A stretch of DNA of 51,313 nt from Lentisphaerota bacterium. GTDB lineage: Bacteria > Verrucomicrobiota > Kiritimatiellia > RFP12 > JAAYNR01. Below, piece after piece: positions 4,206 through 16,270 of the stretch; the stretch's first letter is position 1; the number at the start of each line of letters is the position of its first letter. The stretch spans positions 1 to 51,313 of the forward strand of contig VGWG01000009.1 in the NCBI GenBank assembly GCA_016873675.1, written 5' to 3'. The translations under genes were made by a program, and so were the position numbers. Below the pieces are notes generated by a model, which saw only the letters and a list, made by a program, of their open reading frames with translations, was not told the origin of the DNA and searched no databases.

Positions 4206-4261
4206 CAGTGTAGTCGGTTGGCGACAGGTGTGAGTGGGTGTGTGTGTGGGGGGGTGTCGTT

Positions 4262-4468
4262 ATGCATACTGTCACATTGTCACCCAAATATCAGGTCGTT
4301 ATACCGCTTCCGGTCCGGCGCACGATGCGCCTGCGTCCGGGACAGAAGATGCAGGTTGTTGAATACGAGGGGCGTATCGAGTTGATTCCCGACCGAGACA
4401 TCGCCGATCTGCGGGGCTTTCTGAAAGGGATCAACACCGATTTCGAGAGTAATGAGGACCGGGTATGA
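4262..4468 (+). CDS. AbrB/MazE-like (VapB-type) antitoxin, orphan
   Basis: 68-residue swapped-hairpin AbrB protein. LSPKYQVVIPLPVRRTMRLR is the standard S-x-K-x-Q-V-V-I-P N-terminal DNA-binding motif, followed by a short beta strand (IELIP) and a C-terminal arm LRGFLKGINTDFE. That arm is the kind of tail that binds a VapC/PIN toxin. The start ATG was chosen over upstream alternatives because the motif must begin within the first residues. No toxin follows: the frame opening at 4465 stops after ten codons. It sits between the hexokinase operon and the defence island and may be a remnant of a toxin-antitoxin pair. Confidence 0.8.
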   Translation: MHTVTLSPKYQVVIPLPVRRTMRLRPGQKMQVVEYEGRIELIPDRDIADLRGFLKGINTDFESNEDRV

Positions 4469-4644: not shown

Positions 4645-5004
4645 ATGCTGAGTAGCGCATACGCTGCACCGGTCATTCGCGGCGCCGGTCGCGCCCCTTC
4701 CGGTCCGTGGGACTTTGGCGGGGAGCGCGAACCGCTGATGCACCGCATCCACGCCTATCCCGCCAAGTTTCCCGCTTTCATCACGCCCAAGGCGGTCGCG
4801 TACGCCCAGGCGCGCGGCGTCACCGTCAACCGCATCGCCGACATCTTCTGCGGTGGCGGCACCACCGCCCTGGAATCCAAGCGCCTCGGAACGCCCTTCT
4901 GGGGCTGCGACATCAACCCCGTCGCGACGCTCATCGCATGGACCAGAAAATGGTTGGCGACTCGGGCGGTCGAGTTGACAGGGAAAGAGGTGCATTATGG
5001 CTGA
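4645..5004 (+). pseudogene. Truncated N6/N4 DNA methylase (motif I half only)
   Basis: 119 codons. The N-terminal block MHRIHAYPAKFPAFI and the SAM-binding region ADIFCGGGTTALE (about 66-78) with GCDINPVATLIA (about 88-99) are clear matches to adenine/N4-cytosine DNA methylases. The catalytic S/D/N-P-P-Y motif is absent, and the frame ends after an unrelated-looking tail (WLATRAVELTGKEVHYG). It overlaps the start of the ParB-like gene by 8 nt. The complete methylase at 6994 has the same architecture (LHAICPYFAMFP then FCGRGTT, SDINPVAV, then TSPPY), so this is probably a deleted paralogue. It could instead be a short functional subunit that pairs with the second methylase. Start chosen by a GGAGG about 10 nt upstream. 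Confidence 0.55.
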
Positions 5005-6121
5005 GGCAAAGACAATCAAGATCGAGTACAAGGACACGGACTCGTTGTTGTTCGACGACGAGAACCCCCGCCTGTCCTCCTTCGGCGAAAGCACCACGCA
5101 GGACGCGCTCTTGCGAACGCTCTGGGATGAAATGGCGGTGAGTGAGGTTGCATTGTCTATCGCCGCCAATGGCTATTTCGAGGAGGAGCCGCTCTTCGTC
5201 GTTCCGGGTGACGAGAAGAAGGCGGAGCAGAAGGGCAAGTGGGTTGTGGTCGAGGGCAACCGGCGACTGGCCGCCGTGAAGCTCCTGCGCAACGCGGAAC
5301 TTCGTCGTGTAATGAAAGCCACCGATTTGCCTGCGATCACCGAAGAGCAGCGCAAGAAACTAGCTCTGTTGCCCGTGTCCGTATACCCGAACAAGAAGTC
5401 GCTGTGGGAGTACTTTGGTTTCCGCCACGTGAACGGACCGAAGGAGTGGGATTCGTTCAGCAAGGCGGCTTATATCGCCAGCGTGCGGCGTAAGTACGAA
5501 GTTCCGTTAGACGAGATCGCGCGTAAGATCGGCGATCAGCACAGCACGGTCACCCGCATCTATCGCGGTTTCGTTCTTCTCGAACAGGCCGAGAAGATGA
5601 CCGATTTCCAACGCGATGATCGGATTGCGAACCGGTTCTACTTCTCCCATCTCTACACCGCCGCCGACCAAAGGGAGTTTCAGGAGTTTCTGGGAATAGA
5701 TCCCGCGAGATCACTCCGCGACAACCCCGTGCCCGCCCGACACTTGCCTCAGCTTCAGGAGTTGATGGTATGGTTGTTCGGCAGCAAATCGGACAATAAG
5801 TCACCCGTAGTCGAGCAGCAGAACCCCCACCTGAAATGGCTGCGCCGGGTAATCGGCAACAGGCAAGCCCTCTACGCCCTTCGTTCCGGGATCAGCCTGC
5901 AACGATCACACGAAATCAGTCTGGGTGATGATCGCCGTTTCCAGGAGGCACTCGTCAAGGCCAAGGATGCTCTGCAGGAGGCCAAGGCTACCGTGACAAC
6001 GGGATACAAGGGCGAAGCGGAGACGTTGCGGGTCATGGAGGGGCTGCTTGATCTTACTCGCAGCATAGCCGATGAGATGCGCGCGAAAGCGAGTGATGTG
6101 CGCAGGAAAACGAGGGGATGA
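4997..6121 (+). CDS. ParB/Srx-fold protein in a methylase cassette
   Basis: 374 residues. The N-terminal domain has the ParB-N layout: LLFDDENPRLSSFGE, a helical stretch, then VVVEGNRRLAAVKLL (about 83-97), the conserved E-G-x-R-R signature that in ParB and sulfiredoxin-like proteins binds and hydrolyses nucleotides. A middle helical part (EVPLDEIARKIGDQHSTVTRIYRGFVLLEQA) reads as a helix-turn-helix, as in ParB. The C-terminal part, rich in charged helix, is not recognised. The gene is inside a tight run (8-nt overlap upstream, 3 nt to the next gene) with DNA methylases and a candidate nuclease. A chromosomal partitioning role is therefore unlikely and a role in restriction or phage defence is inferred. 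It has no ParA partner here. Confidence 0.75.
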   Translation: MAEAKTIKIEYKDTDSLLFDDENPRLSSFGESTTQDALLRTLWDEMAVSEVALSIAANGYFEEEPLFVVPGDEKKAEQKGKWVVVEGNRRLAAVKLLRNAELRRVMKATDLPAITEEQRKKLALLPVSVYPNKKSLWEYFGFRHVNGPKEWDSFSKAAYIASVRRKYEVPLDEIARKIGDQHSTVTRIYRGFVLLEQAEKMTDFQRDDRIANRFYFSHLYTAADQREFQEFLGIDPARSLRDNPVPARHLPQLQELMVWLFGSKSDNKSPVVEQQNPHLKWLRRVIGNRQALYALRSGISLQRSHEISLGDDRRFQEALVKAKDALQEAKATVTTGYKGEAETLRVMEGLLDLTRSIADEMRAKASDVRRKTRG

Positions 6122-6124
6122 CCC

Positions 6125-6997
6125 ATGCCCGCCAACATACCTCTGCCTTCGGAGACCGGTGATCCTATCGTGCTGGCCGATTGGCTTGAGATTCTCGCTC
6201 TTTCGGTAGATGACGGCAACGCCAGTCACGGCGACTTGCAGCGCGCGTTGAACCGCCTCGGCGTGGATGGTTTCGACAGTATCTGTACCGCCAGCATGCG
6301 CGAGTTGCATCGCCGCGTTACCGCATCGGAACGCAACTACCCTTTCACTTTCACAGGCACGTTACTCACGAAGAAGGACGACTGGCGCGAGCACTTACCC
6401 TATGTGTTCTGCCTGCTCTTGTCCTACTGTGATGAGAAGAAGAAGCGCGTCAAAGGCACGAATCACGAGTTGATGTTCGAGCAACTGTCGTGTCTCGCCG
6501 CCCGCGGCTATCTTGGCGGGGAAGTCCTGCGTTTCGGTTTCCCGAGAAAGGATTTGCCGGCCGGTTTCCACGATGCCATCTGCCAACTCTGCGGCGCGGT
6601 GAAGGAGTGGACGCCCATCACCGGCAAGACGCTGAAGCGTAAAGACGGCGGGCTGGACCTCGTGGCGTGGAAGCCGTTTCCCGATCAACAGATCGGCAAG
6701 CTTGTCCTCTTCGGGCACTGCGCTTCAGGGGCGGACTGGGACGCGAAGATCAACGAATTACAGCCAAACGACTTCTGCTCGCTTCATCTGGGTGGCGATA
6801 AGAGTCCGATTGTGAAGACCTTCTTCATGCCCCACCGCCTGGACCCCGAGCGTTTCGCGGATCGTGCGGTGTCGGCAAAGTTGTTCTTCGACCGCTGTCG
6901 GATCGCCCGCTTTGCGTCAAGCTACGACTTTGCGCAGGTCACCGAGAACGCGAGTCTCGCCTGGTGCGAGACGGTCTTACCGAGGCTTTCCGCATGA
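6125..6997 (+). CDS. Unknown protein, candidate restriction endonuclease of the methylase cassette
   Basis: 290 residues with no family I can name. Two blocks stand out: KDGGLDLVAWKPF (about 173-185), then LVLFGHCASGADWDAK (about 192-208). A G-G-x-D-h-h-A-W strand followed by a strand ending in C-A-x-G-x-x-W and a Lys is reminiscent of PD-(D/E)XK-type restriction nucleases, with D179 as the acidic metal ligand. This is inference from pattern only. The N-terminal half is helical (ADWLEILALSVDDG; YVFCLLLSYCDEKKKRVKG). It follows the ParB-like gene by 3 nt, and its stop overlaps the ATG of the methylase (ATGA), so translation is coupled. Position between ParB and methylase supports the cognate-nuclease hypothesis. 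Confidence 0.55.
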   Translation: MPANIPLPSETGDPIVLADWLEILALSVDDGNASHGDLQRALNRLGVDGFDSICTASMRELHRRVTASERNYPFTFTGTLLTKKDDWREHLPYVFCLLLSYCDEKKKRVKGTNHELMFEQLSCLAARGYLGGEVLRFGFPRKDLPAGFHDAICQLCGAVKEWTPITGKTLKRKDGGLDLVAWKPFPDQQIGKLVLFGHCASGADWDAKINELQPNDFCSLHLGGDKSPIVKTFFMPHRLDPERFADRAVSAKLFFDRCRIARFASSYDFAQVTENASLAWCETVLPRLSA

Positions 6998-8100
6998 GAC
7001 TCGCCCTCCACGCCATTTGCCCCTACTTTGCGATGTTTCCGGAGAGTTTTGTCCGGGAACAGGTGGAGACGTATTCGTCCCCCGGCGATTGGGTGTTCGA
7101 TCCCTTTTGCGGCCGCGGCACGACGGTATTGGAGTCTTTACTGTGCGGCCGGCAGGTGGCGGGGTCCGACATCAACCCCGTCGCGGTCTGCGTATCCCGT
7201 GCCAAGGCCGAGCGTCCGACCTTGGAGGCAGTGACCGAGCGGTTGGCGAGCCTTGAGGATTTATTCAGCCGCGATAGGCCAGGGAAGGTCGAAACCGAGC
7301 GAAAGGCCTTGCCGCCATTTTTCCGGCGGGCCTTTCACCACGCCACACTGCGCGAGTTGCTGTTCCTGCGTTCCGAATTGGACTGGCGTGACAGCGTTAC
7401 TGATGGGTTCATTTCGGCTTTGGTGGTCGGCTCGCTGCATGGCGAGATGGATCGGTCGAACGCCTATTTTAGCAACCAGATGCCCCGTACGATCTGCCTG
7501 AAGCCAGACTACTCGCTGCGCTACTGGAACCAGCATCGCCTCTTTCCCCGGCGACGCCACGTCTTTGACATGCTTCGGCAGAAGGCAGAACTGCGGTTAA
7601 TAGACCTGCCGGGGGATTGCGGAACGGGCATGGTCAAAAACTCTGACGCCCGCCGCGCCTCTGCCGTCTTTGACAACCTTCATGGTCAGGTGAAACTGGT
7701 TGTGACTTCGCCGCCCTATCTGAATGTGACCCGCTATGAAGAGGACCAGTGGCTTCGGCTCTGGTTCTTGGGCGGCGACCCCCGCCCGACATACGGGCAG
7801 GTATCCCGCGACGACCGTCATGAAAGCGTCGAGAGCTACTGGCGCTTCATTGCCGAGTCTTGGCGCGGCCTGGCTCCACTCCTCGCCGATGGCGCCCGGC
7901 TGGTGTTGCGTCTTGGCGCCATCGGCATGTCGCAGGACGATTTGACGGTGGGTCTGCACACCACAGTCAAGGCCACTTGGCCTCGCGCCCGCCCGCTGAC
8001 CGCCCCCAAACGTTCCGCCATTGTCGGCCGCCAAGCCAAGAACTTTCTGCCATCGAGCAAGGGTTGCCTCTTCGAGATGGATTATGCCTATGCCTTGTGA
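6994..8100 (+). CDS. DNA methyltransferase (N6-adenine/N4-cytosine type)
   Basis: 368 residues. SAM-binding motif I is VFDPFCGRGTTVLE (about 36-49) followed by GSDINPVAVCVSRAK; the catalytic motif is TSPPYLNVTRYEEDQW (about 239-254). The TSPPY form is typical of N4-cytosine methylases but also occurs in N6-adenine enzymes. The order motif I before motif IV is that of the alpha/gamma-like N6/N4 methylases associated with restriction. The start was set to the ATG that overlaps the previous stop (ATGA); a GTG 30 nt upstream is also open. It presumably modifies the host DNA for the candidate nuclease encoded just before it. The gene's last codons overlap the start of a C5-methylase relic. Confidence 0.85.
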   Translation: MRLALHAICPYFAMFPESFVREQVETYSSPGDWVFDPFCGRGTTVLESLLCGRQVAGSDINPVAVCVSRAKAERPTLEAVTERLASLEDLFSRDRPGKVETERKALPPFFRRAFHHATLRELLFLRSELDWRDSVTDGFISALVVGSLHGEMDRSNAYFSNQMPRTICLKPDYSLRYWNQHRLFPRRRHVFDMLRQKAELRLIDLPGDCGTGMVKNSDARRASAVFDNLHGQVKLVVTSPPYLNVTRYEEDQWLRLWFLGGDPRPTYGQVSRDDRHESVESYWRFIAESWRGLAPLLADGARLVLRLGAIGMSQDDLTVGLHTTVKATWPRARPLTAPKRSAIVGRQAKNFLPSSKGCLFEMDYAYAL

Positions 8101-8315
8101 TCACATCACGCAGAAGAACATCGAGCGTCTGCGTCACACTCCGCCAAACGGTGGCGACCGCCGCGCCTGGCCCGCCCGGCTTCGGCTGCGCTGTCATTCG
8201 GGGGACTACGAGGGCCACACGGACGTGTACGGTCGCATGGCCTGGGACGCGCCCGCCCCCACGCTCACCGGGCGCTGCCACAGTATCTCGAATGGCCGTT
8301 ACGCACCTGCCGAAG
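8084..8315 (+). pseudogene. Relic of a C5-cytosine DNA methyltransferase (C-terminal part)
   Basis: In a frame overlapping the end of the previous methylase, the translation reads DHITQKNIERLRHTPPNGG, then CHSGDYEGHTDVYGRMAW and DAPAPTLTGRCHSISNGRY. These are the conserved C-terminal blocks of Dcm-type C5-methylases (R-I-R-H-T-P-x-N-G-G; G-H-T-D-V-Y-G-R-M; P-A-P-T-L-T). The N-terminal two-thirds, including the PCQ and ENV catalytic motifs, are missing, and the normal ending (H-P-E-Q then the R-E-A-A helix) is replaced by out-of-family sequence. The piece lies between genes of the same strand and is best read as the leftover of an internal deletion. Confidence 0.75.
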
Positions 8316-8489
8316 AAAGAGGTTTCCGAGCGCGTTGCCGCCATTCTCGAACTCTTCCCGCAACTCCCGCCCCGACTCAAACAGATCGCCGACCACGTCT
8401 ACTCCCTGAGGCTCGGCAAAGTTGCCTTCTCCGGCCCGGCCGCCGCATTGGCGGATGACAAGGCGAAGTTGAAGGAGTTGTTCTTGTAG
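8291..8489 (+). CDS. Small ORF, 3' remnant of an unidentified gene
   Basis: 65 codons in a different frame from the C5-methylase relic, which it overlaps. From about codon 5 (LPKKEVSERVAAILELF) to the end (DDKAKLKELFL) nearly every third position is G or C and the amino-acid composition is normal, so this stretch was or is coding. No family is recognised. The ATG lies inside the relic, which suggests that the original N-terminus was lost in the same deletion that removed most of the C5-methylase. It ends 9 nt before radC. Confidence 0.4.
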
Positions 8490-8498
8490 GGCATCGTC

Positions 8499-9230
8499 AT
8501 GTCAACCATCACGCATAGATCCACAGGCATCGTTTCCTGGCCCAAGGCCGAACGGCCGCGCGAGCGGCTGCTGGCGGGGGAGAAGTTGTCCGAGGCGGAG
8601 TTGCTGGCGATCATCCTTCGGGTGGGCCAGGGCACGTTCAAGGCGGGGGTGCGGGGGCGGAATGCGACGGATTTCGCGCGGTCACTGCTGAAGGATTTCA
8701 ACGGGTTGCGGGGGCTGGACCGGGCGCATGTGCAGGATTTGTTGAAGGTGCCGGGGCTGGGGCCTGCGAAGGTGGCGCAGATCAAGGCGGCGTTCGAACT
8801 GGGAAAGAAGGTGTGCGCCGGCAAGCTGACCGCACCAGCATTCGAGTCGTCCAAGGCCATCGCCGACTATTTCCGGCCGCGCTTTACCGGCAAGGGGCAG
8901 GAGATCGTCATTGCCGTGTTCCTGAACGGCCAGAATCAGTTACTGGGCTTGAAGGACATCACGGAAGGCACGCCGACCCAGGCGACGGTGTATGTCCGAC
9001 GGATCATCGAAGAAGCGCTGCACCTGCCCTCCACCGCAGCCGTTGTACTGGTGCATAACCACCCGTCCGGAAACCCGGAACCGTCAGACGGCGACGACGC
9101 CACCACGCGCGATCTACTGAAGGCGTGCAAACTGGTGCAACTGATCCTGTTGGATCATGTTATTGTCGGCGAATCCGAGCATTACAGCTACTCCGACGAG
9201 GGGCGGCTGAAGGAACTTGATAACGAATAG
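8499..9230 (+). CDS. radC: RadC-family JAB/MPN protein
   Basis: 243 residues. A helix-hairpin-helix (LLKVPGLGPAKVAQIKAAFELG, about 81-102) precedes a JAB/MPN domain with the metal-binding signature VHNHPSGNPEPSDGD (H186, H188, S195 and D199 by rough count). The C-terminal LLDHVIVGESEHYSYSDEG is the usual ending of the family. RadC was once considered a DNA repair protein; its biochemical function is unsettled, and it is frequently carried by mobile and defence islands, as here. The ribosome site is weak; the start is set by family length. Confidence 0.9.
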   Translation: MSTITHRSTGIVSWPKAERPRERLLAGEKLSEAELLAIILRVGQGTFKAGVRGRNATDFARSLLKDFNGLRGLDRAHVQDLLKVPGLGPAKVAQIKAAFELGKKVCAGKLTAPAFESSKAIADYFRPRFTGKGQEIVIAVFLNGQNQLLGLKDITEGTPTQATVYVRRIIEEALHLPSTAAVVLVHNHPSGNPEPSDGDDATTRDLLKACKLVQLILLDHVIVGESEHYSYSDEGRLKELDNE

Positions 9231-9241
9231 AAGGAGGCCAC

Positions 9242-11494
9242 ATGGCCAAGAAGAAGCAGGAACCGCAGCCATATGCCAAACCGGATCAGATCCGGATTGA
9301 AGGTAACAAGATCTTCAGTCCAGTCCGTAAGACGTGGGTGCAACTGACCCCTGAAGAACTTGTGCGTCAGGAATTCCTCTTTGTTCTAATGGAGGAATAT
9401 GGTTACTCGCTGGATCAGATTGATGAAGAAACACCGGTAACCGGCCGCGGTGCCGGCCAGGCCCGCGCCGACTTCCTGATCTGGCGCACCCCCGCCGCCA
9501 AGGCCGCCCAGGAACACGCCCTTATCGTCGTGGAATGCAAGGCCGACAACGTCACGATTTCCCTCAAGGACTACACTCAGGGGGCAAACTACGCGCAGTA
9601 CGAACACGCTCGGTTCTTCGTCACACACAACCACAGCGAAACTCGATACTGGAAGGTTGACGATACCCGGCGCATGCCGAATTACGACGAGATCGCCGGC
9701 ATCCCGCACGCCGATGCCACAGACAAGGAAGTCACGGAGTTGCTCTCCCGGCTGAAGGTGTTCAAAGAAGACGAGTTCGCCGACCTGCTGCACCAGTGCC
9801 ACAACGTCATCCGCAACCGGGAAAAGCGCGATCCGGTCGCCGCGTTCGACGAGATTGCCAAGATTCTCTTCGTGAAGGTCTTCGTCGAGCGCGAACTCAA
9901 GGCCAAACGAAAGCGCCAGAACCTTTTCAGCGTGGCCTTTCTTGAAGAGCAACTCGGCGACAACCCGCTGGAAGACCTGTTCCAGAAGACCAAGTCGCAC
10001 TATCGCAATGACCGCATCTTCGAAGCCGACGAGAAACTGAACCTCAAGCCGGCCACCGGCATCGAGATCGTGCGCCTGCTGGAGAAGTACAACCTCTCGG
10101 ATACCAGCGAGGACATCAAGGGCATCGCGTTCGAACGGTTTCTTGGCAAGACGTTCCGGGGCGAGATCGGCCAGTTCTTCACCCCGCGTCCGATCGTCGA
10201 GTTCATGGTGCGGATGGTCGAGCCCAAGGAAGGCGAGGTCATTTGCGATCCGGCCAGCGGGTCCGGCGGCTTTCTTATCCGATTCTTCGAACTCGTCCGG
10301 CAGCAGATCCTGGCCGACGCTGACCGGCAGTACCAGGAGTACAAGGCTGGAATCGAAGCTGACAAGAAGCTGTCCGCCGAGAAGAAGGCCACCATGCTCC
10401 GGGCCAAGTTCGACGAAATCCAGGCCACCCTCGACCACGACAGGGAGGGCTCGCGGCTCTGGACACTGGCGAACCGGTGCATCTACGGCACCGACGCCAA
10501 CGACCGCATGGCACGCACCAGCAAGATGAACATGATCATGCACGGCGACGGACACGGCGGCGTTCACCACCACGACGGCTTTCTGAACGTCAACGGCATC
10601 TTCGAGGGCCGGTTTGACATTATCCTCACCAATCCGCCCTTCGGAGCCAACGTCGAGCCGTCGGACAAGATCCTCGAAGAGCAGGTCACGTTGCCGGACG
10701 AGATCGAGCGCGAATACGCCCGCGTCTATGGCGCACCCTACCGCGACGCACTGGCCCGACTGCGCGCCGCCAAGGACAAACCCATTGCGAGCCTCTTCGC
10801 CTTGCCCAAGGCCAAAGGCAACGGCCCGCTCGGCAAGATCAAGACCGAACTCCTATTCATCGAGCGCTGTCTCGACCTGCTCAAACCCGGCGGTCGTCTT
10901 GGCATCGTGCTGCCGGAAAGCGTGTTCAACAATCCGTCGCTGGCGTATGTGCGGGAGTTCTGCGAGAACCGCGCGTTCATCCGCGCCGTGGTCTCGTTGC
11001 CCCAGGACACCTTCATCTCGTCGGGCGCCTCGGTGAAGGCGTCGCTACTCTTCATGCAGCGTTTCACGCGCAAGGAGCAGGCCGATTTCGACGCCAAGAT
11101 GGCCGCCGCCGACAGGGAGACCCGCGCGAAGTGCGCGCAGGAAATCGCCAAGCGCACCCAGGAACTGGAATCGGCCATCGAGAAGGCCAAACAAGAACGG
11201 GACAGCGACCGCCGCAAGGTCCTTCAAGCCGAACTGCGCGACTACCAGAGGGAGATGGAAGACCGCATCGTCCGTGAATCGCGGGCCTTGCTGAAGGAGC
11301 GCTTCCCATACCCCATCTTCCTCTACGAGGCTGAGCACGTCGGCATCACAGCCACCGGCGACACCGACCGCGTTCAGAACGAACTCGTGCCGAACGAGTT
11401 CAAGCCGACAGACGTGGACCTGACCACGCTGGAACTGTACGGCCAGTTCAAGGCCGATCCGAAACCCTTCCTCGCGGCGGGGGCAAAGGCATGA
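9242..11494 (+). CDS. Nuclease-methylase fusion: HsdR-N-like domain plus HsdM N6-adenine methylase
   Basis: 750 residues. Residues about 20-150 look like the type I R-subunit N-terminal (HSDR_N_2) fold with a PD-(D/E)XK core: ARADFLIWRT (D near 77) then ALIVVECKADN (E97, K99). A helical bundle follows, then the HsdM methylase: IGQFFTPRPIVEFMV, SAM motif DPASGSGGFLIRFFE (about 336-350) and catalytic NPPFG (about 463-467, an N-P-P-F motif for N6-adenine). A charged coiled-coil segment lies near 620-680. It has a strong AAGGAGG site and overlaps the specificity gene by an ATGA. No separate HsdR with helicase motors is present. The pair resembles BcgI-type (type IIB) systems, in which an A subunit carries both activities and a B subunit gives specificity. 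Confidence 0.85.
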   Translation: MAKKKQEPQPYAKPDQIRIEGNKIFSPVRKTWVQLTPEELVRQEFLFVLMEEYGYSLDQIDEETPVTGRGAGQARADFLIWRTPAAKAAQEHALIVVECKADNVTISLKDYTQGANYAQYEHARFFVTHNHSETRYWKVDDTRRMPNYDEIAGIPHADATDKEVTELLSRLKVFKEDEFADLLHQCHNVIRNREKRDPVAAFDEIAKILFVKVFVERELKAKRKRQNLFSVAFLEEQLGDNPLEDLFQKTKSHYRNDRIFEADEKLNLKPATGIEIVRLLEKYNLSDTSEDIKGIAFERFLGKTFRGEIGQFFTPRPIVEFMVRMVEPKEGEVICDPASGSGGFLIRFFELVRQQILADADRQYQEYKAGIEADKKLSAEKKATMLRAKFDEIQATLDHDREGSRLWTLANRCIYGTDANDRMARTSKMNMIMHGDGHGGVHHHDGFLNVNGIFEGRFDIILTNPPFGANVEPSDKILEEQVTLPDEIEREYARVYGAPYRDALARLRAAKDKPIASLFALPKAKGNGPLGKIKTELLFIERCLDLLKPGGRLGIVLPESVFNNPSLAYVREFCENRAFIRAVVSLPQDTFISSGASVKASLLFMQRFTRKEQADFDAKMAAADRETRAKCAQEIAKRTQELESAIEKAKQERDSDRRKVLQAELRDYQREMEDRIVRESRALLKERFPYPIFLYEAEHVGITATGDTDRVQNELVPNEFKPTDVDLTTLELYGQFKADPKPFLAAGAKA

Positions 11495-12834
11495 TTGCAC
11501 CGGTCACAGGGAAGGCGTTTGCGGTGCAGTTCCAAGACTTCCTCCGCTGGGACATTGGGTACTTCCGTTCTGTTGCTTGGAAGTGGCCGCATTCTGTCCT
11601 GAAGCCGCTTGGCACCGCGCTCATCAGGACCATAGCCGAAGTTCCCGCGTCAGAACGCAAGCCGGGCTTGCCCGTCATCGAGAAGATCTCCTTCGGCGGG
11701 GAACTGTCCCATTTCGCGCTCTCTCCGGGAGATAAGTACAAGGGAAGACTCTTCTGGGCTTCAAGCGGTGAGTTGATTTTCAGCAAGATTCGTCTGAAAC
11801 AAGGATCCGTGGCAGTCGTGACGGCTGACCCACCGAGGATTGCAGTCAGTCCCGAGTATCCCGTCTACCGATTCGACACCAATGAGGTCATGCCCGCCTT
11901 CATTCTGTTGGTCTTGAGGAGCGGGGCCTTTCAGAAGTTGCTGACAGGCCTCTCGCACGGGGGATCAACCAAGACTCGAATCCACCCGCGAGAATTTGAA
12001 CGACTGACTGTGCCTTTGCCGCTGAAGGCGACACAGAAGGAAATCGCGAGCTTCTGGCAGAGACATGTTGATGCCGTTGATGCGGCGCGTGAAGGGCTTC
12101 GGGAGCCTGTTCGTCTTCTCCACAACCACCTAGCTGATCTCTACCGTCGCACGTGCACGCGGGACGTGATCCATTCCCGCTTCTTCGTCCTGGAGTTCAA
12201 GGACTTGCTCGCCTGGGACGCCAAATCCGGCCGTGCCGCCAGCTTTCGGCTCGCGTGTCCGTCTTTCCGTCCGATGGGCGACTTCATCGAGGAGGCCACA
12301 GACCTATGCCGCCCCGCAGACGAGCTTCACAAGGACTGGCCGGTGTACGGCGTGAACAACAAGGAAGGCGTGTTCCTGAACTCGCACCAGAAAGGCGCGT
12401 CATTCAACGCCCCGTACAAGCGCATCCGCAAGGATTGGTTCTTCCACAACCCCACCCGCTGCAACGTCGGCTCACTCGGCATCGTCCCGGACGTGCCAGC
12501 AGACGCCATTACCAGCCCGGAATACCAAGTGTGGCGCCTGAAGACCGGCATCCCGGAACCCATGCTCCCCGGCTATGTCGCCTGTCTGATCCAGACGCCG
12601 TTCTTCCTCGATCTGGTCCAATTCAACCGCGTCGGCGCCGTGAAACAGCGCATGTACACCGAGAACCTCATGCAGGTCCGTATTCCATACCTGCCAGTAC
12701 CCGAGCAACAGCGCTACGCGGACGCCCGCGAGAAGGCGCTCACCGCTCTCGCCGGTGCCAAACAACGCCTCGCCATCGCTCGCGAAGAAGTGGAAGCCAT
12801 GATTCTGGGGACAAGGAAGGTGGACACGCCATGA
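11491..12834 (+). CDS. hsdS: HsdS-like specificity subunit
   Basis: 447 residues with the two-half layout of type I specificity subunits. The first target-recognition half covers about 1-200 (QDFLRWDIGYFRS; GELIFSKIRLKQGS; TKTRIHPREFERLTVPLPL) and ends in a helical connector (FWQRHVDAVDAAREGLREP). A second, parallel half covers about 225-440 (EFKDLLAWDAKSGRA; VKQRMYTENLMQVRIPYLPV) with its own distal helix. Each half would read one part of a bipartite DNA site. It is translationally coupled to the methylase upstream and to the DGQHR gene downstream by ATGA overlaps, so all three form one transcription unit. Confidence 0.82.
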   Translation: MIAPVTGKAFAVQFQDFLRWDIGYFRSVAWKWPHSVLKPLGTALIRTIAEVPASERKPGLPVIEKISFGGELSHFALSPGDKYKGRLFWASSGELIFSKIRLKQGSVAVVTADPPRIAVSPEYPVYRFDTNEVMPAFILLVLRSGAFQKLLTGLSHGGSTKTRIHPREFERLTVPLPLKATQKEIASFWQRHVDAVDAAREGLREPVRLLHNHLADLYRRTCTRDVIHSRFFVLEFKDLLAWDAKSGRAASFRLACPSFRPMGDFIEEATDLCRPADELHKDWPVYGVNNKEGVFLNSHQKGASFNAPYKRIRKDWFFHNPTRCNVGSLGIVPDVPADAITSPEYQVWRLKTGIPEPMLPGYVACLIQTPFFLDLVQFNRVGAVKQRMYTENLMQVRIPYLPVPEQQRYADAREKALTALAGAKQRLAIAREEVEAMILGTRKVDTP

Positions 12835-14378
12835 GTCGCGGCAGACAAAAGGTCTCTTTCGAGGGTTTGTTGCAGGAGAATGTTCTGGGATCATTCAAGG
12901 TCATCCGCGGTTTTGCTGACTTGGGCGACTTGGCCGAGGTGTCGGTCCCACTCTATCACGACTTCAAAGTGCGAGACGGCTATCAACGGCAACCCACAGA
13001 ACCACATATCGAAGCGATCAAGTCATTCCTGAAGAAGGGCCGTTACCGGTTCTTCCCGGAGATTGTTCTCGGTCTTTGGAGTAAGGGATCAGACGATCCG
13101 ATTGTATCGTACCGGAAGCGCCGTGGTTCCACGCGTGACAGTGCATACATTGTCACCGTGAACCTGAAGAAGATCAACGCCGAACCCAAAGGCCGGATCC
13201 ACCGGATTGACGGGAATCACCGCTTGGAAGCAGCGAAGCGGCTATTAGAAGAACAGAGGCGAGGCGCGACGTTCAGGGACTTTACAAAGGCGCCATTCTG
13301 TTTCGTAGTCTTGGACTCAGACAAACCAGAAGACGATGACCTCGCAGAGGCCATGCTGTTCAATCTGATCAACAGCAAGGCGAAGCGCTTAGATTCGGAG
13401 CATAGTCTGTCCGTTCTCATGCGTGATAACGGGTCGGAAGCGGACCGGTTCTCGGAAGACCCCCAACTCTATCTGACCAACTGGATGCGGGCAAAGGTTA
13501 AGGATTGGCCGCACGGGTTCTTCAGTGCAATGGGCGATGCCCCCCTCTCTCGTCTGCATTCTGCCGCAGGCGTGTTGCTCCGCCCCGGAGGCATCAAGAA
13601 GGCAACGCAGCAGGAGATGGAGACCGACGCGGACCACTTGTTCGGCCCATTATACGAACTGGCCATCACGTTGCGTTCTCAGTACGAGACATTCGTGCAT
13701 TCATATGCTTTTCTTCCAGTCGCCGCGGAGGTTTACGCCCGCCACTCGACGATCGAACCGGCAAAGGGCGCGAACACCGAAGCAGAACGGCTACGCCGTG
13801 CTGAAAGATGGCTCAACGATTTCGCGCGATGGTTCGACCGGGTTGGTGGTTCTGACCTCCCCATGCTGGCCGATCCTTGCGTCCTGTGGAACGTCTTCAA
13901 GCGCGATTACGACCGCCGGGCCGGCCAGGTCTTCATCGCCATGTCCTTCCGCGAAGACCGGACACTGCATAGCGTTCGGCAGGCCATCGGCGAGGCCATC
14001 GCAGCGTTCAACCAGGGCCATCCGAACGCCAAGTTGGCACCGACACGCGTGGACGAGCAGAAGGGCCTGAGTTACGAAATCCCGGCCCGCGTGTTCGAGG
14101 AGATCGGTGCCAGCCGACTGCTGATCGCTGATCTCACCGACGAGAAGCCGAACGTCTACTGCGAGGTTGGCTACGCCATGTCCAAGGGTATCCCGTTCAT
14201 CCTGACATTCCACAAGACGGCCGCTGCTCCCCTGGCTCCCTGGGACCGCACGACGGACTCCGGCAGCAAGGTCCACTTCGACCTGGCCGCGTTCCGGCGC
14301 ATCGAGTACGACAACCCGATGGATCTCCGAGACAGACTGAGAGGCGAACTCGATGCGTGGCATGATCGGCCCGCGTAG
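12831..14378 (+). CDS. DGQHR/DndB-like protein fused to a TIR/deoxyribosyltransferase-like domain
   Basis: 515 residues. The N-terminal half resembles DGQHR-domain proteins (DndB relatives): YQRQPTEPHIEAIKSFL, RYRFFPEIVLGL and the signature RIDGNHRLEAAKRLL (about 125-139; D-G-N-H-R in place of D-G-Q-H-R). A helical linker follows. The C-terminal ~100 residues (from about 365) begin GQVFIAMSFRED and continue with RVDEQKGLSYEIPARVFEEI, LLIADLTDEKPNVYCEVGYAMSKGIPFIL. This I/V-F-x-A-M-S-F ... A-D-L-T ... N-V-Y-x-E-V-G-Y-A pattern belongs to the nucleoside 2-deoxyribosyltransferase/TIR-like fold found at the ends of many predicted NAD- or nucleotide-cleaving defence effectors. It starts within the hsdS stop (ATGA). 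The inferred role is sensor plus effector tied to the modification system. Confidence 0.75.
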   Translation: MSRGRQKVSFEGLLQENVLGSFKVIRGFADLGDLAEVSVPLYHDFKVRDGYQRQPTEPHIEAIKSFLKKGRYRFFPEIVLGLWSKGSDDPIVSYRKRRGSTRDSAYIVTVNLKKINAEPKGRIHRIDGNHRLEAAKRLLEEQRRGATFRDFTKAPFCFVVLDSDKPEDDDLAEAMLFNLINSKAKRLDSEHSLSVLMRDNGSEADRFSEDPQLYLTNWMRAKVKDWPHGFFSAMGDAPLSRLHSAAGVLLRPGGIKKATQQEMETDADHLFGPLYELAITLRSQYETFVHSYAFLPVAAEVYARHSTIEPAKGANTEAERLRRAERWLNDFARWFDRVGGSDLPMLADPCVLWNVFKRDYDRRAGQVFIAMSFREDRTLHSVRQAIGEAIAAFNQGHPNAKLAPTRVDEQKGLSYEIPARVFEEIGASRLLIADLTDEKPNVYCEVGYAMSKGIPFILTFHKTAAAPLAPWDRTTDSGSKVHFDLAAFRRIEYDNPMDLRDRLRGELDAWHDRPA

Positions 14379-14416: not shown

Positions 14417-16270
14417 ATGTCGAGTTTTGATTCCACGAAGCAGTCGCTGGGCAAGGTGCTGGACAGCATTGTCGAGGGGAAGATTCAGCTTCCGGACTTC
14501 CAGCGGGGCTGGGTGTGGGACGATACGCATATTCGGTCGCTGTTGGTCAGCATCGCCCGGTCGTTTCCCATCGGCAGCATCATGCTCCTGGAGACAGGGG
14601 GAGAGGCGAAGTTCCAGATTCGACCGATCGAGGGGGTTTCGCTGTCGCCCGGCGTAAATGCCGCTGAACAACTGATTCTGGACGGTCAGCAGCGACTGAC
14701 ATCCCTTACCCAGGTGCTGAAGATGGACAAGGCCGTCCAGACCAAGGACGACCAACGGCGCGAAGTTGAGCGTTTCTACTACTTCAACATTGAAAAGGCG
14801 CTACAAGGCGGCGCGTTGATCGAAGACGCCATCTTGGCGGTGGACGCCGCGAAGACACTGCGGACGAATTTCGGGCGCGATATCGTCCTCGACCTGAGCA
14901 GTCCGGAGAAGGAGTTCCAGACCTTCCATTTTCCCTGCAACCAGATTCTCAACTCGGACCGATGGGAAGAGGGTCTTATGGCCCACGACAGCAGCCGGTT
15001 CCAGCGCTATATGTCGTTCCGCAAGGATGTGCTCGGGAAGTTCCGCGAATACCTGCTGCCGATCATCGAACTGAAGAAGGAGAACAGCAAGGCGGCCGTT
15101 TGTCTCGTCTTCGAGAAGGTCAATACCGGCGGGGTGCCGCTGTCGGTCTTCGAGTTGATGACGGCCACCTACGCCGCCGATGGCTTCAACCTGCGGGATG
15201 ACTGGTATGGCAATGCGGCGAAGAGCATCGCGGGGCGGAGCAAGACGTTGAAGGATCGTGCGCTTCTGAGCGAGATCGAACCCACGGACTTCCTTCAGGG
15301 CATCTCGCTTCTTTACACGATCGAACGTCACAGACAGGACGTGGCGGCCGGCAAGTCCAAGAAGGAAGCCACGGCGGTCAGCGCGAAACGAGAACACATC
15401 CTGATCATGCCACTGTCAGCCTATCAGGCATGGGCCGACCGCCTGCTGGCCGGCTTCCTGGAGGCGGACCGATTCCTACGACAAGAGGGCTTCCACAAGC
15501 GCGACTTCCTGCCGTACCGAACGCAACTTGTGCCTCTTGCGGCCACGATGGTGCATCTCGGGGAACGCTGGCTCGAACCGGCGAACAAGGACAAACTGCG
15601 GCGCTGGTTCTGGTGCGGGGTGTTCGGCGAACTCTACGGCGGCGCGGTCGAGACCCGCATCGCCCTCGATCTGCAGGATCTGCTCGCGTGGTGCGATGAT
15701 GCCGGTGCGGCGGTGCCCAAGACGGTCGTGGATGCCGGCTTCCAGGTGTCCCGGTTGGACACGTTACGGACGCGGACAAGCGCGGCGTACCGGGGGCTGT
15801 ACGTCCTACTCCAGCGGGAGGGCTCCCATGACTTCTTCTGGAAGGCGCGCATGATTGATCTGGACCGGGACGAGTGCAAGATCGACATCCATCACATCTT
15901 CCCCAAGGCATGGTGCAAGGCCCAGGGCATTACGCCAGCCGTCTTCAACTCCATCGTCAATAAGACGGCCATCTCATACAAAGCCAACCGCATGGTCGGC
16001 GGCAAGGCCCCCTCCGCATACCTTGAGGACATCCGCACGCACAGTCACGTCGGCATCGAAGTTCAGGAGCAGGACGCGATCCTCCGCACGCACGTCATAG
16101 ACCCCGGGCTCCTGCGCACAGACGACTTCCGTGCCTTTTACGAAGCTCGCAAGAAGGCCCTTATCGGCCATGTCGAGCGCGCCATGGGCAAAGACGCCGT
16201 CGCTCACGCGCCTCAAGCCGCACCCGAGGACGAGTGGGAAGATGAGGAATCGGACGGGCAAGATGGCTGA
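14417..16270 (+). CDS. GmrSD-type DUF262-DUF1524 protein (type IV restriction-like)
   Basis: 617 residues. The N-terminal DUF262 domain has LPDFQRGWVWDDTHIRSLL, ARSFPIGSIMLLE and the ParB-like signature LILDGQQRLTSL (about 87-98). The C-terminal DUF1524 domain is an HNH-type nuclease: KIDIHHIFPKAWC (about 488-500), then VNKTAISYKANRMVGGKAPSAYLED. In GmrSD and BrxU enzymes these domains form an NTP-dependent endonuclease that cuts modified phage DNA. All signature residues are present, so it is likely active. It lies 38 nt after the DGQHR gene with a CGGAG ribosome site and may be cotranscribed. A defence role is strongly implied by family and context; substrate is unknown. Confidence 0.87.
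   Translation: MSSFDSTKQSLGKVLDSIVEGKIQLPDFQRGWVWDDTHIRSLLVSIARSFPIGSIMLLETGGEAKFQIRPIEGVSLSPGVNAAEQLILDGQQRLTSLTQVLKMDKAVQTKDDQRREVERFYYFNIEKALQGGALIEDAILAVDAAKTLRTNFGRDIVLDLSSPEKEFQTFHFPCNQILNSDRWEEGLMAHDSSRFQRYMSFRKDVLGKFREYLLPIIELKKENSKAAVCLVFEKVNTGGVPLSVFELMTATYAADGFNLRDDWYGNAAKSIAGRSKTLKDRALLSEIEPTDFLQGISLLYTIERHRQDVAAGKSKKEATAVSAKREHILIMPLSAYQAWADRLLAGFLEADRFLRQEGFHKRDFLPYRTQLVPLAATMVHLGERWLEPANKDKLRRWFWCGVFGELYGGAVETRIALDLQDLLAWCDDAGAAVPKTVVDAGFQVSRLDTLRTRTSAAYRGLYVLLQREGSHDFFWKARMIDLDRDECKIDIHHIFPKAWCKAQGITPAVFNSIVNKTAISYKANRMVGGKAPSAYLEDIRTHSHVGIEVQEQDAILRTHVIDPGLLRTDDFRAFYEARKKALIGHVERAMGKDAVAHAPQAAPEDEWEDEESDGQDG

Follow-up and report, generated by a model that had tools for sequence, protein, structure and literature searches.

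A ParB-like protein, a predicted Mrr-like nuclease and an exchangeable DNA methylase: a candidate three-component restriction-modification cassette

Which function might unite a ParB-like protein, a 290-amino acid (aa) protein of no recognised family and a DNA methylase is the question raised by a row of tightly packed genes on a contig of a Lentisphaerota bacterium (GenBank assembly GCA_016873675.1, contig VGWG01000009.1, positions 1 to 51,313; this stretch of 51,313 nucleotides is referred to as the window). The initial annotation, made from the letters alone, had proposed a cassette of four genes (4645-8489) with a candidate nuclease and two methylases as a distinct restriction-modification architecture. 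The cassette consists of three genes, those of the ParB-like protein, the 290-aa protein and an amino-methyltransferase (Table 1), and it probably represents a three-component restriction-modification system; this reading was adopted because a conserved nuclease pair is combined with interchangeable methylases. Its basis can be read directly from the sequences: the genes are intact, the pair is near-obligate, the active-site residues are conserved, no uncut viral locus lacks a methylase, and the methylase class has been exchanged repeatedly.

The association of the ParB-like protein with the 290-aa protein was assessed by using the ParB alignment as a query against genomes of bacteria and archaea, because the alignment of the nuclease family offered no conserved stretches for such a scan; 528 relatives were found and the best 80 kept, i.e. 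the sample consists of the most similar ParBs and more distant ones may differ. In 74 of the 80 chromosomal relatives, which come from many phyla, the profiles placed the 290-aa family directly downstream of the ParB gene in the same orientation, the two genes usually being separated, or overlapping, by a few nucleotides. Among the six exceptions, two were situated at a contig edge, in three the nuclease was fragmentary or its gene disrupted, and one (locus L036) was devoid of the nuclease. The viral contigs harboured more divergent ParBs (identity down to 25%) and the pair in 78 of 80 cases, both misses being cut by the contig end; in the reverse search starting from the 290-aa protein, ParB was located directly upstream in seven of eight matches (window included). 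The co-occurrence in other genomes by which the initial annotation had proposed to judge its reading is near-perfect, and the adjacency of the two genes goes beyond chance. A cassette of the L063 type had no match in plasmids, phages or E. coli. No description of the ParB-nuclease pair was found among the open-access papers searched, REBASE not being included.

The ParB-like protein possesses the E-G-N-R-R stretch noted at first (residues 86-90, positions 5252-5266), which corresponds to the phosphate-binding P motif (GxxR in PMC12704722); residues E86-L91 were invariant across 32 relatives. The protein matched TIGR00180 and, by profile, the ParB structure 4umk, and its AlphaFold2 model (predicted local distance difference test, pLDDT, 91) retrieved 19 ParB/Noc/KorB chains in Foldseek at E<=1e-3 (probability 1.0). 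In the PHROGs collection it belongs to phrog_3694 (7.7e-76), a family of unassigned role. Sequence and model together thus combine the GxxR phosphate motif with a predicted fold of the ParB-CTPase type; ParB relatives bind cytidine, adenosine or guanosine triphosphate (CTP, ATP or GTP), and the sequence does not predict which (PMC12704722).

The 290-aa family had no sequence match in Pfam, PADLOC or PDB, and neither Mrr_cat nor another Pfam domain was present in any of 57 family members; its PHROGs counterparts (phrog_14650 and phrog_3984) lack an assigned role as well. The structural model, calculated by AlphaFold2 with a pLDDT of 94.5 and a predicted template modelling score of 0.92, was nevertheless nuclease-like in its fold matches: the top named match among the viral models of BFVD was an Mrr-like protein (probability 0.97, E 4e-3), the leading matches were mostly Mrr-like proteins or restriction endonucleases (probability 0.93-0.97), and the weak matches in PDB included MspJI, Can2, Card1, SgrAI, BsmI and BsaWI, several of which are PD-(D/E)XK enzymes. 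The motif block on which the nuclease had first been proposed (G-G-L-D, residues 175-178; C-A-S-G-A-D-W, residues 199-205) was found in place; the assignment to the PD-(D/E)XK superfamily is upheld as probable, but a more fitting reading of the block, of the kind seen in Mrr/MspJI-type nucleases, is D178...(Q/H)198-x-[K/A] plus a lysine that has been displaced (K208 in the window). Asp-178 was present in every relative that covers this position (148 nuclease sequences), position 198 is glutamine in most relatives and histidine in the clade of the window, and the catalytic-type lysine is positioned either at 200 (Q-x-K) or at 208, the latter where residue 200 is mostly alanine or glycine. In the first 81 sequences, 46 contained K200, 34 K208 and one neither; the full set comprised 50 sequences with K200 and 97 with K208, one row having both, so that exactly one lysine was present in all but two rows. 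The family pattern D-x19-Q-x-K agrees with the reported PD-QxK site of Mrr and MspJI (PMC12707154), and lysine migration is known within the PD-(D/E)XK superfamily (PMC1189080). Given the predicted fold and this residue pattern (acidic residue, Asp, QxK or displaced lysine), the 290-aa protein is very probably a nuclease.

The third component is the amino-methyltransferase of the window (PF01555, 1e-16; PADLOC MTase_II, 4.6e-28), which by its sequence is an intact DNA methyltransferase, as expected for restriction-modification. Its motif I (DPFCGRGTT, residues 36-44) precedes TSPPY (residues 238-242), i.e. the motifs are in permuted order, and it is probably of the N4-cytosine type. The partner methylase of the pair is not uniform: the family of the window enzyme followed directly after the nuclease at 24 of the 80 chromosomal loci (and on a Mesorhizobium plasmid, L014), a Dam-like D12 methylase was located upstream of the pair at 34 and downstream or antisense at about 12. 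The 76 uncut viral loci all contained a methylase, with 47 of the C5 type (nearly always facing the pair), 27 of the D12 and two of the N4 type; the four viral loci without a methylase were all cut by contig ends. Methylase and nuclease are kept together at each of these 76 loci and at most of the 80 chromosomal ones, and a tree of the 148 nuclease sequences, calculated by a fast method, requires 11 or more changes of methylase class (the starred branches force at least seven changes for D12 and for N4). Such repeated exchange fits if the shared job of the methylases is site protection.

The best PADLOC match of the D12 partners was PD-Lambda-5_B (up to 1e-116; 316-385 bits in one set, about 107-150 bits in a more distant set), the methylase of a system that has been called a compact combination of restriction-modification and abortive infection by Vassallo et al. 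(PMC9519451). The ParB-like protein of the window is likewise distantly related to the N-terminus of PD-Lambda-5_A (residues 1-161; 1.5e-15, 55 bits; N-terminal third of the profile only), and ParBs of the PD-Lambda-5_A type are also present at some loci. The pair might accordingly be regarded as a conditional killer: a phage that disturbs methylation or nucleotide pools would provoke the cutting of host and phage DNA and the death of the cell, the methylase shielding the host until then. However, the C-terminal part of the PD-Lambda-5_A-type proteins showed no relation to the nuclease, and no infection-sensing step is visible in the sequence; abortive infection is therefore considered rather unlikely.

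In the restriction-modification reading, the methylase would mark the DNA of the host at one particular sequence, and the ParB-like protein would bind nucleotide and, via its helix-turn-helix, DNA, and serve as the recognition or licensing subunit for the adjacent Mrr-like nuclease; the latter would cut DNA with unmethylated sites. The ParB-like protein rather than the nuclease is proposed to find the site and license cleavage because both the helix-turn-helix and the nucleotide pocket reside in it. Endonuclease activity, dependence on a nucleoside triphosphate (NTP) and methylation that protects instead of sensitising are presumed in this scheme. Tentatively, and with somewhat less than even confidence, the cassette may even define a restriction-modification class of its own: an NTP-dependent clamp of the ParB type would recognise the site, license cleavage and load a separate Mrr-like nuclease, and the methylase would be freely exchangeable between N6-methyladenine (m6A), N4-methylcytosine (m4C) and 5-methylcytosine (m5C) types. 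Of the distinct architecture suggested initially, the restriction-modification-like layout of ParB, nuclease and methylase is supported by the fold matches and the co-occurrence; the second methylase is to be omitted from it.

Several observations weigh against this interpretation. The Foldseek search of PDB with the 290-aa model returned nothing at E<=1e-3, and hhalign brought the motifs into register with Mrr_cat only at a probability of 4% (P 0.011). The window protein and its five closest relatives have H198 in place of glutamine. The switch between K200 and K208 requires only about two changes on the nuclease tree and does not represent many independent events; because of this, the Fisher test on lysine exclusivity (p 5e-22) was set aside. 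At three chromosomal loci with enough room (L078, L080, L093), the neighbourhood contained no D12, N4 or C5 methylase in intact form. Furthermore, characterised Mrr-type enzymes are mostly modification-dependent and would kill their own host if a cognate methylase were active next to them.

In a type IV-like alternative, the pair would cut foreign-modified DNA and the neighbouring methylase would block or compete for those sites. Mrr and MspJI, to which both the fold and the PD-QxK-type site bear a resemblance, cleave modified DNA, and in GmrSD, too, a nuclease is coupled to an NTPase of the ParB/Srx fold (PMC4619093); the presence of a methylase at every uncut viral locus, and of three different classes at that, makes this explanation quite improbable. 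The lack of a significant PDB fold match and the presence of H198 and A200 instead of Q-x-K in the window copy would, on the other hand, be compatible with a catalytically dead PD-(D/E)XK-like protein that binds DNA as a partner of ParB and regulates the methylase. A dead scaffold would need neither the invariant Asp-178 nor the lysine at 200 or 208 that 147 of 148 relatives retain, and the proposal is very unlikely to be correct.

A form of the cassette also occurs in E. coli and in P2-group phages. Matches to the combination of ParB, hypothetical protein and C5 methylase were present in 225 of 5,426 complete E. coli genomes (84 of the 225 at a coverage of at least 80%), and the pair with a D12 methylase in 20; an E. 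coli example lay next to the portal gene of a P2-like prophage. In coliphage WPhi (L209, 96-3266), gp98, gp96 and Mth represent the same trio by profile, as do genes of vB_EcoM-12474III; the annotations in these phages read hypothetical protein, ParB domain and methylase, and WPhi Mth is annotated alone. Judged by sequence, the trio found across many phyla and in E. coli phages of the P2 group looks like a previously unrecognised one. The many copies in P2-like prophages, together with the ParB proteins and methylases that occur jointly near the terminase genes of many phages (PMC6536676), might indicate phage housekeeping, i.e. a ParB-methylase locus that steers DNA modification in packaging, as proposed for ParB-Tls, with the nuclease as an accessory degrading host or rival DNA. 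Yet many copies come from distant phyla, where plasmids or ordinary chromosomal contigs carry them, and in WPhi and the E. coli prophages the cassette forms a block between portal and replication genes, so that a housekeeping role is most improbable.

The limits of the cassette in the window follow from the comparison with its relatives. The four plus-strand frames described at first lie at the given positions (Table 1), with an 8-nucleotide overlap, a 3-nucleotide gap and a 4-nucleotide overlap between them; the genes of the proposed span are as placed, with its end at 8489 exceeding the last gene (8100) and covering debris only. The first frame is indeed a truncated methylase, with motif I and no (S/D)PPY motif in its 119 aa, and shares 39% identity over 67 aa with the intact enzyme. 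Its matches among the relatives were the downstream methylase and in no case a gene upstream of ParB; the loci with long upstream flanks (L017, L018) had different genes upstream of the pair. In none of the relatives compared was there a counterpart of this fragment or of the downstream debris at those places. The four-gene cassette was consequently rejected, its first methylase frame being without catalytic half and without counterpart, and the two methylases did not prove to be a conserved feature: the upstream one is a stray piece, and a single methylase of varying class is found at other loci. Behind the cassette, the frame at 8093-8305 was best matched by PADLOC DruM2 (1.5e-12; MTase_II, 2.6e-7), and that at 8292-8489 had no match in Pfam or NCBIfam and was absent from the relatives. 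A reading of the C5 remnant at 8093-8305 as a partner methylase like that of the E. coli form was set aside, DruM2 being its best match.

Table 1. Coordinates of the cassette genes and of the adjoining frames in the window
Feature	Position	Strand	Properties
Truncated methylase fragment	4645..5004	+	119 aa; motif I half only; judged to lie outside the system
ParB-like protein	4997..6121	+	374 aa, intact; N-terminal ParB NTP-binding fold, helix-turn-helix, helical C-terminus (predicted)
Predicted Mrr-like PD-(D/E)XK nuclease	6125..6997	+	290 aa, intact; AlphaFold2 model, fold matches, conserved residues
Key residues of the 290-aa protein	E119 6479-6481; D178 6656-6658; H198 6716-6718; A200; K208 6746-6748	+	
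Amino-methyltransferase, N6_N4 class	6994..8100	+	368 aa, intact; PF01555, PADLOC MTase_II
C5 cytosine methylase C-terminal remnant	8093..8305	+	No start, no catalytic half; PADLOC DruM2
Short frame, 3' edge of the reported span	8292..8489	+	No Pfam or NCBIfam match

The surroundings of the cassette contain further genes of possible defence function. A RadC-family JAB protein (8499-9230) is encoded between the cassette and a type I-like pair (9242-12834), which consists of an HsdM-like protein with an N-terminal nuclease-type domain (HSDR_N) followed by HsdS; both resemble Mad2/Mad5 of MADS below the cut-offs. Further downstream, a DGQHR/DndB-like ParB-fold protein (12876-14378) with a C-terminal stretch similar to nucleoside-deoxyribosyltransferases/TIR effectors is possibly a separate defence gene, and a large protein of the same defence island (14417-16270) matched PADLOC PDC-M55C and HEC-05 and exhibits near its C-terminus an HHIFPK stretch that is HNH-like in look. 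The left edge of the island is marked by a small frame (4238-4468) that by eye is of the AbrB/MazE-like antitoxin type, with no evident toxin gene after it.

If the restriction-modification reading is right, a function hypothesis is obtained for two protein families without assigned role (phrog_3694 and phrog_14650/3984), both of them present in hundreds of E. coli genomes and in many phyla, and WPhi Mth finds its place in a candidate complete system. ParB-type NTP switches would then extend from chromosome segregation to the discrimination of self and non-self DNA, and a clamp-licensed class of restriction-modification would be widespread in bacteria, its members in P2-like phages (WPhi among them) being concealed under the label of hypothetical proteins. 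The exchange of methylases of different chemistry around a single nuclease pair would moreover constitute a natural experiment on specificity change in restriction systems.

With regard to known systems, the layout differs, as first stated, from type I, type III, BREX and DISARM, since no helicase/translocase or PglZ/DrmA-type gene is present among the three cassette genes. The proven anti-phage system PD-lambda-5 (Vassallo et al. 2022; PMC9519451) shares with the cassette the ParB-like N-terminus, the PD-Lambda-5_B methylase of many of its relatives and the occurrence in prophages. In contrast, PD-Lambda-5_A is a single protein whose C-terminus showed no relation to the nuclease, whereas the window has a separate gene for the Mrr-like nuclease; a profile comparison for a nuclease fused into PD-Lambda-5_A was negative. 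No PD-Lambda-5_B was found among the cassette proteins of the window, whose methylase is of another class, and its ParB, at 55 bits, is not a full-length PD-Lambda-5_A (full-length matches in L030 and L071: 473-608 bits). At several loci (L030, 8968-13403; L071, 6490-11039; L087, 6862-11025; L094; L049) the pair was accompanied by a second ParB of the PD-Lambda-5_A type and a PD-Lambda-5_B methylase, which suggests that the two systems can be combined.

The type IV enzymes Mrr and MspJI (PD-QxK) agree with the 290-aa protein in the predicted fold and in an aspartate followed about 20 residues on by Q-x-K, but the family has no Mrr_cat match, no winged-helix or SRA reader domain was identified in the 290-aa protein, many members including that of the window have the lysine at +10 after the glutamine, and the gene is accompanied by those of ParB and a methylase. 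A nuclease driven by an NTPase of the ParB/Srx fold is a theme common to GmrSD and SspE as well; these, however, have the DUF262 variant with DGQ(H/Q)R and an HNH domain and act on modified or phosphorothioated DNA, whereas the cassette comprises a canonical ParB-type GNRR protein with helix-turn-helix, a separate PD-(D/E)XK protein and a methylase. Restriction systems of the MORC/MutL-Z1-DUF4420 kind were reportedly described by Iyer et al. in 2008; the window cassette is without Z1 or MORC ATPase, and a likeness is given by one relative on a Neorhizobium plasmid (L011, 1-7879), in which the pair directly follows genes with DUF262, Z1 and a PD-(D/E)XK motif. Type II restriction-modification systems, finally, resemble the cassette in combining a nuclease with a stand-alone methylase and no helicase, but the nuclease of the cassette is paired with a ParB-family protein, and the class and orientation of its methylase vary widely.

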